32,566 nucleotides of DNA from Actinomycetota bacterium (GTDB taxonomy: Bacteria > Actinomycetota > Acidimicrobiia > Spongiisociales > UBA11373). The notes under the pieces were generated by a model, which was not told where the DNA came from, ran no database searches, and saw only the letters and a list, made by a program, of their open reading frames with translations. Of the stretch, positions 19,569 to 25,328 are shown one piece after another. The translations under genes and the position numbers were made by a program. The DNA is taken from assembly GCA_016870535.1 (NCBI GenBank), contig VGBK01000012.1, forward strand, positions 1-32,566, written 5' to 3'. The stretch's first letter is position 1. Every line of letters starts with the position of its first letter.

Positions 19569-21101
19569 CTACCCCTCTTCCTCTGCCATCCAGGGCACCG
19601 GCCCGCCCGAGGTGGCGGCCTCCTCGAAGAGGAGCACCCCTCGGCCCCCGCACTCGTCGCACACCCGCGAGAACGACTCCAGCAGGCCCTCGGACACGTT
19701 CTTGCGGGTCATCTCCACCAGGCCCAGGTGGGACACATCGAACACCTGGGTGCGGGTCTTGTCCCGGGCGAGGGCTTCCCGCAGGCGCTGCAGCACCGCC
19801 TCGCGGTTGCGGGCCACCTCCATGTCGATGAAGTCGATGACGATGATCCCCCCGATGTCCCGCAGCCGCAGTTGGTGGGCGATCTCCTCGGCCGCCTCGA
19901 GGTTGTTCTGCAGCACCGTCTCCTCGAGCGAGGAGTGGCCCACGAAGCGGCCGGTGTTGACGTCGACGACGGTGAGGGCCTCGGCACGGTCGATCACGAT
20001 GTGGCCGCCGCTGGGGAGCCACACCTTGCGGTCGAGAGCCTTGCGCAACTGGTCCTGGACGTGGAAGCGCTCGAACAACGGGGCCTCGTCGCCGTAGAAG
20101 TGGACCCGGGGCACCAGGTCGGGATCGGTGGCTTCCAGGTACTCCACCACCCCACGGTGGATCTCCGGATCATCGACCAGCATTCGCCGGAAGTCGCCGG
20201 TGAAGTGCTCCCGGACCACCCGGATGACCAGATCGGGCTCCTCGTGGAGCAGGCGCGGGGCGCCGCCCTCGGGGATCCGGGCGGTGATCTCTTCCCACGC
20301 CCGGCGCAGGCGCTCGACGTCGGCCCGCAGTTCGTCCTCGCCGGCCTGCTCGGCGGCGGTGCGCACGATGACACCGAAGCCTGCGGGGCTCAAGTCGGCC
20401 ACCACGCGGCGCAGACGCTCCCGCTCGGGGTCGGGCAGGCGCCGACTGATGCCGCGCACCTCGGAGTCCGGGGCCAGCACCAGGTACCGCCCCGGCAGGC
20501 TGACCTGGTTGGTGAGCCGCGCTCCCTTGCTTCCCATCGCGTCCTTGGTCACCTGCACCAGGATCTCGTCGCCCGCCTTCAGCGCCTTCTCGATGCGCGG
20601 GTGGCGGCCGCCGTTCGAGTGAGGGTCGGCCTGCACATCGCCGGCGTAGAGGACCCCGTTCTTGGCCTCCCCGAAGTCGACGAAGGCGGCCTCCATGCCG
20701 GGAAGGACGTTGCGCACCTTCCCCAGGTAGATGTTTCCGGCCAGGGACTTGCGGTCGCTCCGCGCCACGTAGTGCTCCACCAGGAGAGCCCCCTCCAGCA
20801 CCACGAGCTGGGTCTGGTGAGGCGTGCGGCGGATGAGCATCTGCTTGCGCTCGGTCTCCGGGACGGGAAGCACCACTTCGACGCGGGGGAGGTGGCGCGA
20901 CGCTCCTCTCTCACCGCGCGACGGGCGCGAGCGCACCGCACGGGCCGCCTTGGGACGCGGCTCGGGCGCCGGCGCTACCGCACGGACGCGACGGATCTCG
21001 ACGGTGCGCCGTCCGCGACGGCGCACCACCTTCTCTTCAACGGCCTGGTCGCCCACACCCTTGCGGACGACCTCGGGACGGCTCCGACGCAGCAAACCCA
21101 T
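19569..21101 (-). CDS. rng: Ribonuclease E/G family protein
   Basis: LVEHYVARSDRKSLAGNIYLGKVRNVLPGMEAAFVDFG...SGGHIVIDRAEALTVVDVNTGRF...GGIIVIDFIDM...CDECGGRG. Confidence 0.93.
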   Translation of the reverse strand: MGLLRRSRPEVVRKGVGDQAVEEKVVRRRGRRTVEIRRVRAVAPAPEPRPKAARAVRSRPSRGERGASRHLPRVEVVLPVPETERKQMLIRRTPHQTQLVVLEGALLVEHYVARSDRKSLAGNIYLGKVRNVLPGMEAAFVDFGEAKNGVLYAGDVQADPHSNGGRHPRIEKALKAGDEILVQVTKDAMGSKGARLTNQVSLPGRYLVLAPDSEVRGISRRLPDPERERLRRVVADLSPAGFGVIVRTAAEQAGEDELRADVERLRRAWEEITARIPEGGAPRLLHEEPDLVIRVVREHFTGDFRRMLVDDPEIHRGVVEYLEATDPDLVPRVHFYGDEAPLFERFHVQDQLRKALDRKVWLPSGGHIVIDRAEALTVVDVNTGRFVGHSSLEETVLQNNLEAAEEIAHQLRLRDIGGIIVIDFIDMEVARNREAVLQRLREALARDKTRTQVFDVSHLGLVEMTRKNVSEGLLESFSRVCDECGGRGVLLFEEAATSGGPVPWMAEEEG

Positions 21102-21403: not shown

Positions 21404-21985
21404 TCAGAGGGCCAGACGCTCCTGCCGGAACTCCCCCGGGGTGTAGCAGTAGCGGCAACGCGCCTCGTACGCTCCCTCCGCGCCGAGGACGACCAACTCA
21501 TCGGAGGCGATGACCCTTTGGGTGAACATCCCTGCCCCCCCGCAACGGTGGCAGACGGCGAGGCTCTTGGTGACGTACTCGGCGCGGGTCATGAGCGTTG
21601 GGATGGGCTCGAAGGGCCGGCCCAGGTAATCGAGGTCCAGGCCGGCCACGATCACCCGCTTCCCCGCGGCGGCCAGCCACTCCACCACCTCAACCAGTCC
21701 CTCGTCGAAGAACTGCCCCTCGTCGATCCCCACCACCACCGTGCGCTCCTGCACCGCCCGCAGCAGGGTGGCGCTGTCGGGCACCGGCTCCGCAGCCACC
21801 GACAGGGCGCTGTGCGACACCACCTGAGCCTGGGAGTAGCGATCGTCGATCGCCGGCTTGAAGGTCTGGGTGGGGATCCGGGCGATCTGGTAGCGCACCA
21901 TGCGGCGAATCAGTTCTTCGCTCTTCCCGGAGAACATGGGGCCGCAGATCACCTCGACCCAGCCCCGGGAGTCGCGCCGATCCAT
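21404..21985 (-). CDS. tdk: Thymidine kinase
   Basis: VEVICGPMFSGKSEELIRRMVRYQIA...VVVGIDEGQFFDEG...VIVAGLDLDYLGRPFEPIPTLM...CHRCGG...CRYCY zinc motif. Confidence 0.95.
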   Translation of the reverse strand: MDRRDSRGWVEVICGPMFSGKSEELIRRMVRYQIARIPTQTFKPAIDDRYSQAQVVSHSALSVAAEPVPDSATLLRAVQERTVVVGIDEGQFFDEGLVEVVEWLAAAGKRVIVAGLDLDYLGRPFEPIPTLMTRAEYVTKSLAVCHRCGGAGMFTQRVIASDELVVLGAEGAYEARCRYCYTPGEFRQERLAL

Positions 21986-22026
21986 GAGCACAGCGTAGCC
22001 GCCCCCCTGCCCGCCCGGCCGGGCGC

Positions 22027-23184
22027 TCAGAGCAGGAAGCGCTCCCCCGGCACGGGAGAGCGGCGCAGCCACACGGCGTGCGCCATTCCCAGGGTGAGAG
22101 CCACCGCGCCGTAGAACGAGCCCCCGTAGCTCATCAGAGGGAGCGGCAGGCCGGTGACGGGCATCAGCCGCTGGGCCATGCCGACGTTGACGAACACGTG
22201 GAAGACGACCAGGGCCGCGGCGCCCACCGCCAGCAGGTACCCGAAGCGGTCGCGCGCCGCCGCCGCGGTCATCAGCAGCCGCCACACCACCAGCGCGAAG
22301 AGGCCGAGCACGACGGCCGAACCGGCGAAGCCCAACTGCTCGGCCACTGCGGTGAAGATGAAGTCGGTGCGCTGCGCCGGGACGAAGGCCCCGTTCGTCT
22401 GCAAGCCCTGGGAGAGACCGCGACCGAAGAGCCCGCCGCTGGCAATGGCGATCTGGCTCTGGGTCTGGTTGTAGTTCAGGGTCAGCTCGGCCTCGCCGGA
22501 GTTCAAGAACCCGGTGAGCCGGTCCAACTGGTAGTCCTTGAGGATGTCTACCTGGAAAGCGATCACCAGGGCGATCACCGCGCCGACCAGCAGCAGGATG
22601 ATGTGGCGCACCGAGGTCCCGGCCACGAAGAGCATGGCCAGCGCCACGAAGCCGAACACCAGCATGGTGCCGAGGTCGGGCTGCACGAAGATCAGGGCCG
22701 AAGGCACCGCCATCAGGGTGATGGTCTGCGCGATGCGCCGCCAGCCCAGCCGGCCCCCTTCCCCCGAGGACAGCAGCGCGGCCAGGGCCAGGATCATGGC
22801 CGGCTTGGCTACCTCGGCGGGCTGCAGGTCGATGGGGCCCAGCGGGATCCAGCGCTGCGCCCCGGAACGCATCGACCCGATGGGGGTCAGCACCAGCAGC
22901 AGGAGCAGCAGCGCCCCCCCGTAGGCATAGGGGGCCAACGCCTTCCACCGGCGATCGCTGAGCAGCGAGGCGGCGATGAAGACCACCACCCCGCCGGCCA
23001 TGTAGAAGGCCTGGCGCACCATGTCACCGCTCGGGTCCAGACCGGCGGCTTCGTTGCGCGGGGCGGTGACCGTGTAGATCATCAAGAGCCCCACCGCGCT
23101 CAGCACGGCGGCGGCTGCGGCCAGCAGGTAGTCGGGCCGGGAGAGACGCCGGCGGTGCGGCAGGGAGACGCCGGCGGCGGTCAT
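22027..23184 (-). CDS. rodA: Rod shape-determining protein RodA (SEDS family)
   Basis: QRWIPLGPIDLQPAEVAKPAMILALA...FVQPDLGTMLVF...QSQIAIASGGLFGRGL...FVPAQRTDFIFTAVAEQLGF...GLPLPLMSYGGS. Confidence 0.94.
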   Translation of the reverse strand: MTAAGVSLPHRRRLSRPDYLLAAAAAVLSAVGLLMIYTVTAPRNEAAGLDPSGDMVRQAFYMAGGVVVFIAASLLSDRRWKALAPYAYGGALLLLLLVLTPIGSMRSGAQRWIPLGPIDLQPAEVAKPAMILALAALLSSGEGGRLGWRRIAQTITLMAVPSALIFVQPDLGTMLVFGFVALAMLFVAGTSVRHIILLLVGAVIALVIAFQVDILKDYQLDRLTGFLNSGEAELTLNYNQTQSQIAIASGGLFGRGLSQGLQTNGAFVPAQRTDFIFTAVAEQLGFAGSAVVLGLFALVVWRLLMTAAAARDRFGYLLAVGAAALVVFHVFVNVGMAQRLMPVTGLPLPLMSYGGSFYGAVALTLGMAHAVWLRRSPVPGERFLL

Positions 23185-25328
23185 CAGTCGGTCTCCTCGC
23201 CGCCGCGGATGGCGCCCACCGGTTCGCCCAACAGGTACTGCAGGATGGCACGCGTCGTGGGCGCGGCGATCCGGCCGCCGGCCCCTCCCTCCTCGATGAC
23301 CACCGCCACCACGAACTGCGGGTCGTCGAGCGGCGCCACCCCGACGAACCAGGCGGTGTCGATCTCGGAGACTTCCTCCACCACCGCCCCGGGGAAGGCA
23401 TCGGGACGCTTGGCGGCGTAGGCTTCGGTGGCCCCGGTGATCTCACCCAGTTCGACCCGGCCGTCCGGCCCGGCCGCGTCGAACCGGGCCCGGACATCGG
23501 CGGCCGTCATCCCGACCAGGATCGCCAGGTTGGAGATGACCTCTTCCTCCCTCCAGGGCGGCACCCGACTGCGATCGACCACCAGCAGCCGGGTGGGAAG
23601 GCGGATCTGCGCCGTTCCGGTCTTGCCCCCCACCCGGTCCAGCGAGTCGCCGAAGTCCTGGAAAGCGGCGCGGGCGGTGCCCTTCGGCGATGCCACCACC
23701 CCGTGCAGGTCGGCGCGCAGGCTGGCGACGGTGGCCGGGGAGATGTCGATCTTCCGGACCACGCTGTTGACGTTGGTGAAGAGCGGCGCCCCCGCAGAAT
23801 CGCGGATCTCCAGCACTACCCGCGGCTGCCAGAGCGTGCCCCCGTTGACCAGGGCGGCGAAGGCGTTGGCCAGCTGCAGCGGGGTGCACACCATCGCTCC
23901 CTGGCCGATGGCTACGTTCATCAGGTCTCCGCCCGACCAGCCGCCCTTCGCCCGCACCAGGCCCGTCTGGTTCAACTGGTGGTACTGGAACCACTGCCGG
24001 TCGGGAACGATGCCGGCCTGCTCGAAGGGGAGGTCGACGCCGGTGCGCTCCCCGAAGCCCAGCGCACGCGCCCAGTCCTGCAACAGGTTCTCGCTCGAGG
24101 CGAGGTCGGGGTTCTGCGAGTTCTCCCAAATCTTCAGGGCGATGCCCCAGTAGTAGTTGTCCGAGGACACCTCCAGCGAGGTGTGGATGTTGATCAGGCC
24201 GTGAACCTTCCAGTCCTTCAGCAAGGGGGTGTTGGGGAACTGCAGGTCGCCGTCGGCGTAGAAGGAAGTGGGATCGGTGGGGTCGAGGAGGTGGGCGTAC
24301 TCGTCCTGCTCCACCGTCGGGTAGATCCCCTGCTCCAGGGCGAGGGTGTAGGGCACCACCTTGAAAGCCGAAGCCGGGGGATAGAGGCCCTGGATGGCAA
24401 AGTTGTTCAGCGCCGCCGTCCGCTGCAGGCGGGCCCACTCCTCCTCGCTGATGCGGCCGGTGGAGAAGAGGCTGGGGTCGTAAGCCGGAACCGAGGCCAG
24501 CGCCAGCACCGACCCGTTGCGCGGGTCCAGGACCACCGCCGCGGCGCGGATCGGCTGCTTGCCATCGCGGCGCGCCAACGACAGGCCATCGTAGAGCGCC
24601 CGTTCCACGAAGTCCTGTAGCTCCAGGTCGATGGAGGTGACCACGGTCCCCCCCGCCCGGGGCGGAACCTCGTCGATGATCCCCAGGATCTCACCGGCGG
24701 CGTTGACCCGGTAGGTGATCCGCCCGGGCGTCCCCCGCAGTTGACGGTCGTACTGCCTCTCGATGCCGAAGCGCCCCACCCGGTCCCGCGGGGTGATCTC
24801 GGGACGCTGCAGGTCCTCTTCGGCCGGGGCGCCGATGTAGCCGAGCACATGCGCCGCCGTCTCGCCCCGCGGGTAGACGCGCACCGGCACCGGCTCCACC
24901 ACCACGCCCGGGAAGTCCTCGATGCGCTCGAGGACGAAGACCGACGTCGCCTCGGAGACCTCCTCGCCGAGAGTGAAGCGGGCCCCCGGACCGGCCTCCT
25001 CGAAGCGAGCCCGCAGGTCGTCCGCCGGCACCCCGAGCAGAGCGGCCAGGTTGTTGATCAACCCCTCCTCCCGCTCCGCGGGCAGCAGCTTGCGATCCAC
25101 CACCAGTTGCCGGGTGGCCACCGTGCCCGCCAGCAGCTGCCGCCCCGTCCGGTCGAGGATGTCGCCGCGTGGGGCCTCGATGGTGACCACCCGTATCTGC
25201 TGCTGTTCGGCCACCTCGAGGGCCGACGCCAGGGTGGAGACCTGCAAATACCAGAGGCGCAGCAGGAGGACGGCGAAGAGGCCGGAGAAGATGGCTCCCA
25301 CCACCGCCAGGCGCCAGGCGCGTCTCAC
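23184..25328 (-). CDS. mrdA: Penicillin-binding protein 2 (class B transpeptidase) with internal duplication
   Basis: EAPRGDILDRTGRQLLAG...VYPRGETAAHVLGYIG...PPASAFKVVPY (SxxK), SSDNYYWG (SxN), VGGKTGTAQ (KTG), DTAWFVGVAPLDD. Confidence 0.94.
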   Translation of the reverse strand: MRRAWRLAVVGAIFSGLFAVLLLRLWYLQVSTLASALEVAEQQQIRVVTIEAPRGDILDRTGRQLLAGTVATRQLVVDRKLLPAEREEGLINNLAALLGVPADDLRARFEEAGPGARFTLGEEVSEATSVFVLERIEDFPGVVVEPVPVRVYPRGETAAHVLGYIGAPAEEDLQRPEITPRDRVGRFGIERQYDRQLRGTPGRITYRVNAAGEILGIIDEVPPRAGGTVVTSIDLELQDFVERALYDGLSLARRDGKQPIRAAAVVLDPRNGSVLALASVPAYDPSLFSTGRISEEEWARLQRTAALNNFAIQGLYPPASAFKVVPYTLALEQGIYPTVEQDEYAHLLDPTDPTSFYADGDLQFPNTPLLKDWKVHGLINIHTSLEVSSDNYYWGIALKIWENSQNPDLASSENLLQDWARALGFGERTGVDLPFEQAGIVPDRQWFQYHQLNQTGLVRAKGGWSGGDLMNVAIGQGAMVCTPLQLANAFAALVNGGTLWQPRVVLEIRDSAGAPLFTNVNSVVRKIDISPATVASLRADLHGVVASPKGTARAAFQDFGDSLDRVGGKTGTAQIRLPTRLLVVDRSRVPPWREEEVISNLAILVGMTAADVRARFDAAGPDGRVELGEITGATEAYAAKRPDAFPGAVVEEVSEIDTAWFVGVAPLDDPQFVVAVVIEEGGAGGRIAAPTTRAILQYLLGEPVGAIRGGEETD
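23370..23594 (-). repeat. Diverged second copy of PBP2 N-terminal segment, inserted after KTG motif
   Basis: TRLLVVDRSRVPPWREEEVISNLAILVGMTAADVRARFDAAGPDGRVELGEITGATEAYAAKRPDAFPGAVVEEV, about half identical to the copy at 24888-25115. Confidence 0.85.
24888..25115 (-). repeat. N-terminal copy of the PBP2 internal duplication
   Basis: TRQLVVDRKLLPAEREEGLINNLAALLGVPADDLRARFEEAGPGARFTLGEEVSEATSVFVLERIEDFPGVVVEPV. Confidence 0.85.

Follow-up and report, generated by a model that had tools for sequence, protein, structure and literature searches.

The window, a stretch of 32,566 nucleotides from an uncultured actinobacterium that was analysed at its full length, contains a locus with the gene order mreB-mreC-mreD-PBP2-rodA, in which MreB, MreC, MreD and RodA are named by NCBIfam models. 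A thymidine-kinase-like sequence (CGPMFSGKSEELIRR) is found directly after rodA (21404-22027, minus strand) and is followed by a ribonuclease of the Rne/Rng family (TIGR00757) at 19569-21101. The PBP2 gene and its features are the following:

23184..25328, minus strand: PBP2/MrdA gene, 714 aa (ORF; TIGR03423; NCBIfam-named neighbours)
24888..25115, minus strand: original head subdomain of the pedestal, source of the copy, aa 72-147 (alignment, tree)
24360..24371, minus strand: SxxK active-site motif SAFK, aa 320-323 (sequence)
23601..23630, minus strand: strand beta3 with KTG, aa 567-576 (DSSP on AF2 model)
23370..23594, minus strand: inserted second head subdomain, aa 579-653, 75 residues (self-alignment, AF2, Foldseek)
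23334..23363, minus strand: strand beta4, IDTAWFVGVA, aa 656-665 (DSSP on AF2 model)

The protein passes the cut-off of the NCBIfam MrdA model TIGR03423, with a score of 468.4 bits vs 455; the match covers residues 6-576, halts at the insert and picks up again at nt 23226-23372. Pfam recognises both the pedestal (PF03717, PBP_dimer, 3.7e-34) and the transpeptidase domain (PF00905, 3e-52). S320 and K323 of the SAFK motif are invariant across 64 aligned PBP2s, while SDN (aa 389-391) and KTG (aa 569-571) are present and undamaged; past the insert the reading frame is kept and beta4 (DTAWFVG), which is conserved in relatives, resumes in frame. The original prediction, which described SxxK, SxN, KTG and the following strand as intact and the enzyme as an elongasome transpeptidase, is borne out by the motifs, by the model score and by the adjoining mreBCD and rodA genes. 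Judged from its sequence, the protein is a class B PBP2/MrdA with intact transpeptidase motifs and predicted activity. Like the PBP2s of E. coli, A. baumannii, H. pylori and T. thermophilus, it consists of a pedestal (anchor, head and linker) and a transpeptidase domain, and its full-length model superposes on the best solved PBP2s with TMt of 0.86-0.88. It shares the SxxK/SxN/KTG motifs and the proximity to mreBCD and rodA with class B PBP2/MrdA proteins, but differs from those surveyed in its additional head subdomain, which separates beta3 from beta4.

Only one PBP2 of the window genome passes the MrdA cut-off and the mre-rodA operon is intact, so the enzyme is presumably in use. RodA, MreC and MreD have 82-86% identity between the two species of the genus and 56-67% identity to the family members compared; these partners look ordinary, and thus no matching change in them is seen.

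The positions first given for the insert and for the head, nt 23370-23594 and 24888-25115, proved exact when checked by ORF and alignment. In the self-alignment 40 of the 75 residues of the insert are identical to the protein's own head (53%), with one single-residue gap, as in the nearly end-to-end, about half-identical alignment reported originally; the BLOSUM62 local score is 180, while the best of 1000 shuffles reached 60 and their mean was 33.7. The FPG motif is also retained in the insert. In crystal structures the PBP2 pedestal is made of anchor, head and linker; in A. baumannii PBP2 the head corresponds to aa 78-165, and two long antiparallel strands join it to the linker (PMC9974482). 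Residues 72-147 of the window protein run from the first of these head-linker strands to the second, which indicates that the copying took in the complete head subdomain; indeed, the boundaries of the insert match those of the crystallographic head of A. baumannii PBP2 nearly exactly (PMC9974482). Together with the predicted fold, this agreement sustains the earlier proposal that a pedestal subdomain was duplicated into the beta3-beta4 loop.

Other sources and traces of the copying event were also considered. The second-best match of the insert in the genome is its own head, and no paralog appears that would point to an origin from another PBP. An apparent likeness in the DNA immediately upstream (GGCGAC..GACCGG), which might represent a trace of the breakpoint, is absent in the sister species, where GESLSQ replaces GDSLDR; since it is not common to the two species, it was taken as chance.

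Structure prediction points to a folded domain. The isolated insert, modelled by AF2 with 45 heads and the two inserts aligned as input, has a pLDDT of 92.8 and a beta-alpha-alpha-beta-alpha-beta arrangement, with the three-stranded sheet and three helices of the head fold. Because heads were included in the alignment, the prediction is informed by homology and indicates compatibility with the head fold, rather than being an independent proof of it. Foldseek searches with this model mostly returned class B PBPs, with probability 1.00, TMq of 0.64-0.73 and E-values of about 0.002-0.02, their modest level (0.002 upward) being due to the small size of the domain. The full-length protein, modelled from 64 sequences, 2 of which with the insert, gave a pLDDT of 93.3 and a pTM of 0.88, with about 93-97 for the block of the insert region; DSSP assigned near-continuous strands at 567-576/579-585 and 648-653/656-665. 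The insert is therefore predicted with high confidence to be a compact head fold placed atop an extended beta3-beta4 hairpin. The Foldseek search also revealed that ClpS adaptors (7d34, 4yjm, 9ayo) resemble the head subdomain fold of PBPs, with TM of about 0.66-0.70.

The insert is specific to a single lineage, one genus of uncultured actinobacteria, as far as the compared sequences indicate. Relatives were checked as originally suggested: the only other genome of the genus compared (G001) has the insert with identical junctions (TAQIRLP...E[IV]DTAWFVG) and diverged sequence, while the insert is absent from 12 of the 12 other species of the family and from 76 further PBP2s of the order. Whether all class B PBPs have a homologous segment at this site, a finding that the original prediction named as fatal to it, was examined in the order, the class and the phylum, with a negative result. 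The KTG-WFVG span was compared among 90 PBP2s of the order and has 18-34 residues in 86, 60 in two and 95-96 in two, the last being the two members of the genus; in 87 further PBP2-type proteins from across the phylum it has 17-27 residues in 86, the remaining one being empty in this region. Spans of 17-34 residues in the order and phylum rule out that the insert is an ordinary feature of class B PBPs. When a profile built from the insert and its flanking sequence was run against 395 genomes of the class, matches across the entire region were confined to the two genomes of the genus; elsewhere in the class the insert profile matched N-terminal heads alone (23 genomes). A search of contigs for the insert region returned only the sister species and a distant Clostridiales PBP.

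The length of the beta3-beta4 hairpin varies also within the family, since the two 60-residue spans belong to L011 and L013 of another genus (g8) and are unrelated to the head; they were rejected as older or related head copies, since neither resembles any other part of its own protein. A different extension is found in 13 PBP2s of family f2 of the order (L085, L088-L099), which have about 130-150 additional residues after the first helix of the transpeptidase domain, made up of an acidic low-complexity linker and, after it, a conserved portion bearing a GLPID-like motif and WCPVR. The two examples scanned matched nothing in Pfam, and none of the six tested is a self-copy, as they lack similarity to the rest of the protein.

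Phylogenetic analysis of heads and inserts placed the two inserts in one clade (support 97/90), which joins the genus's own two heads (88/92) and stands clear of the head sequences from every other genus. Two independent duplications are disfavoured, with p-AU of 0.033 when the insert of G001 was placed separately and of 0.050 in the same test for the window genome. The position of the insert clade inside the group of the genus heads, together with the lack of a better source PBP in the genome, indicates one copying event of the protein's own head; thus, on the available sequences, a single duplication on the stem of the genus is most likely.

The two copies have followed different paths since then. 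Between the two species the inserts have 41% identity, vs 74% for the heads and 76% for the whole protein, and the branches of the tree are about 0.75 for the inserts vs 0.08-0.23 for the heads, so that the inserts evolve at roughly three to nine times the rate of the heads. From the two insert sequences, a dN/dS of 0.49 was estimated for the insert (95% bootstrap interval 0.27-0.82), compared with 0.26 in the head and 0.16 over residues 3-71 and 148-400. The insert, as its sequences indicate, is evolving faster than the head, yet under purifying selection, dN/dS being significantly below 1. The 19 core columns, hydrophobic in nearly all heads, are kept in 19/19 and 18/19 cases in the two inserts, while other columns are hydrophobic in 17/62 and 22/62. 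Five residues are common to both inserts and differ from both heads, including a Trp (aa 592) that opens the first helix. The low dN/dS and the conserved core of the two sequences compared therefore suggest that the fold is kept while the surface drifts or adapts.

The architecture of PBP2 is highly conserved, and elongasome partners regulate PBP2 through its head subdomain; N. gonorrhoeae PBP2, for its part, is a PBP2 of the division type (FtsI/PenA). In H. pylori PBP2, the head binds MreC by a hydrophobic zipper that is shielded by the anchor (PMC5626683); the subdomain is the same as the one copied in the window protein, but the H. pylori head works in the pedestal with an anchor, while the window copy is found on the transpeptidase domain and has no anchor. 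The beta3-beta4 loop of N. gonorrhoeae PBP2 alternates between two states, one extended with low drug affinity and one inward with high affinity, and so sets how tightly drugs bind; this is the same loop that hosts the window insert, but it is mobile and has no inserted domain (PMC8503634). A large ordered beta3-beta4 insertion, like that of the window protein, is present in the PBP2 of Clostridioides difficile (7rcw), where a 'coiled-coil stretch' of about 110 residues (805-915) has been reported and called highly unusual, other published PBPs having about 5-20 residues at this position (PMC9334274); the same enzyme is insensitive to cephalosporins. The C. difficile insert is a coiled coil without known homology, while the window insert, at the same site, is a copy of the protein's own head with a predicted beta-alpha-alpha-beta-alpha-beta arrangement and not a coiled coil. 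The insertion site thus has a precedent, which somewhat lowers the novelty of the window insertion: a place known for rare large insertions is occupied here by a functional subdomain copied from within the same gene. Searches of the open-licence literature gave no PBP in which a head or pedestal subdomain is duplicated at beta3-beta4, an absence that is weak evidence.

The reading preferred here, to which a probability of about 0.5 is assigned, is that the head was duplicated once, in frame, and that the copy was kept as a folded accessory domain which gates the beta3-beta4 loop or docks a partner. The copy and its boundaries, its single origin, its predicted fold and its occurrence in two species are either demonstrated or well supported. 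In the ancestor of the genus, the gene segment for the head subdomain was most likely copied in frame into the stretch encoding the tip of that protein's own beta3-beta4 hairpin; since the head starts and ends on neighbouring antiparallel strands, these strands continue from beta3 and into beta4, leaving the transpeptidase fold undisturbed. The copy has since been retained as a folded domain under purifying selection, with a diverging surface. Placed at the rim of the active-site cleft, the accessory domain may hold the otherwise mobile beta3-beta4 loop as a long ordered hairpin, which should change the access of substrate strands and beta-lactams to the site, and it may also offer a docking face for a fast-evolving partner or a cell-wall strand. 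It probably no longer performs the conserved job of the first head; divergence has gone much further in the inserts than in the heads, which makes a repeat of the head's conserved binding role less likely. We infer the gating and docking steps by analogy with Neisseria PBP2 and from the predicted models. A more specific and rather unlikely form of the proposal is that binding of a partner (MreC, RodA or a lineage-specific protein) at the recently copied head directly gates crosslinking, bypassing the pedestal. Against the preferred reading, the three-to-nine-fold faster evolution of the insert fits weak constraint as well, and RodA, MreC and MreD are ordinary, with no matching change.

The main rival explanation is a tolerated, near-neutral insertion at a permissive surface hairpin, functionless and subject to selection only against misfolding, a possibility to be taken seriously even if it is held here with less than even confidence. 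The inserts have indeed only 41% identity where the heads have 74%, their dN/dS is higher (0.49), and the site also accepts the 60-residue spans of g8 and, in C. difficile PBP2, a coiled coil of 110 residues. However, dN/dS lies significantly under 1 and the core has stayed hydrophobic; five residues are common to both inserts and differ from both heads, and neither of the two known species has lost the insert, although they are separated by a dS of about 0.7.

An improbable alternative is that the insert is a second docking site for MreC (or RodA, or another PBP2 head), so that two MreC molecules are engaged or the enzyme dimerises. The H. pylori head supplies the hydrophobic zipper for MreC (PMC5626683), and the copy retains both the fold and the FPG motif; however, a conserved interface should have kept the copy head-like, yet the copies diverged far more than the heads. 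Furthermore, the second head is without the anchor strands that gate MreC binding, and MreC looks ordinary.

An adaptation to beta-lactams, in which the bulk of the insert would hold the beta3-beta4 loop outward and so reduce the affinity for the drug, is very improbable. An outward or extended loop does lower cephalosporin affinity in N. gonorrhoeae PBP2 (PMC8503634), and cephalosporin insensitivity is seen in C. difficile PBP2, another enzyme with a large insert at this site; however, the part of the C. difficile report that is available ties this insensitivity to an occluded active site and not to the insert (PMC9334274). Finally, an assembly error, chimaera or pseudogene, to which the fragmentation of the genome (322 contigs) might lend some credit, is refuted in practice, since a second species, sequenced in a separate assembly, has the insert with the same junctions in a form that diverged independently, the 53% identity between insert and head is not that of a collapsed repeat, and the reading frame is intact and under purifying selection; the original view that the insert is no assembly artefact therefore stands.

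Returning to the duplicated head as an accessory domain, the subdomain through which partners regulate PBP2 is here found also beside the catalytic cleft, at its rim, in an enzyme that is apparently the sole MrdA-type PBP2 of the cell and is still under selection. The beta3-beta4 hairpin is shown to accept a whole folded domain, which adds to C. difficile PBP2 another example, unrelated to it, and this suggests a design route to how the position of the loop or the docking of a partner may gate crosslinking. The insert also offers a clear-cut example of a domain duplicated within its gene and inserted elsewhere in it, with an origin dated to one genus.
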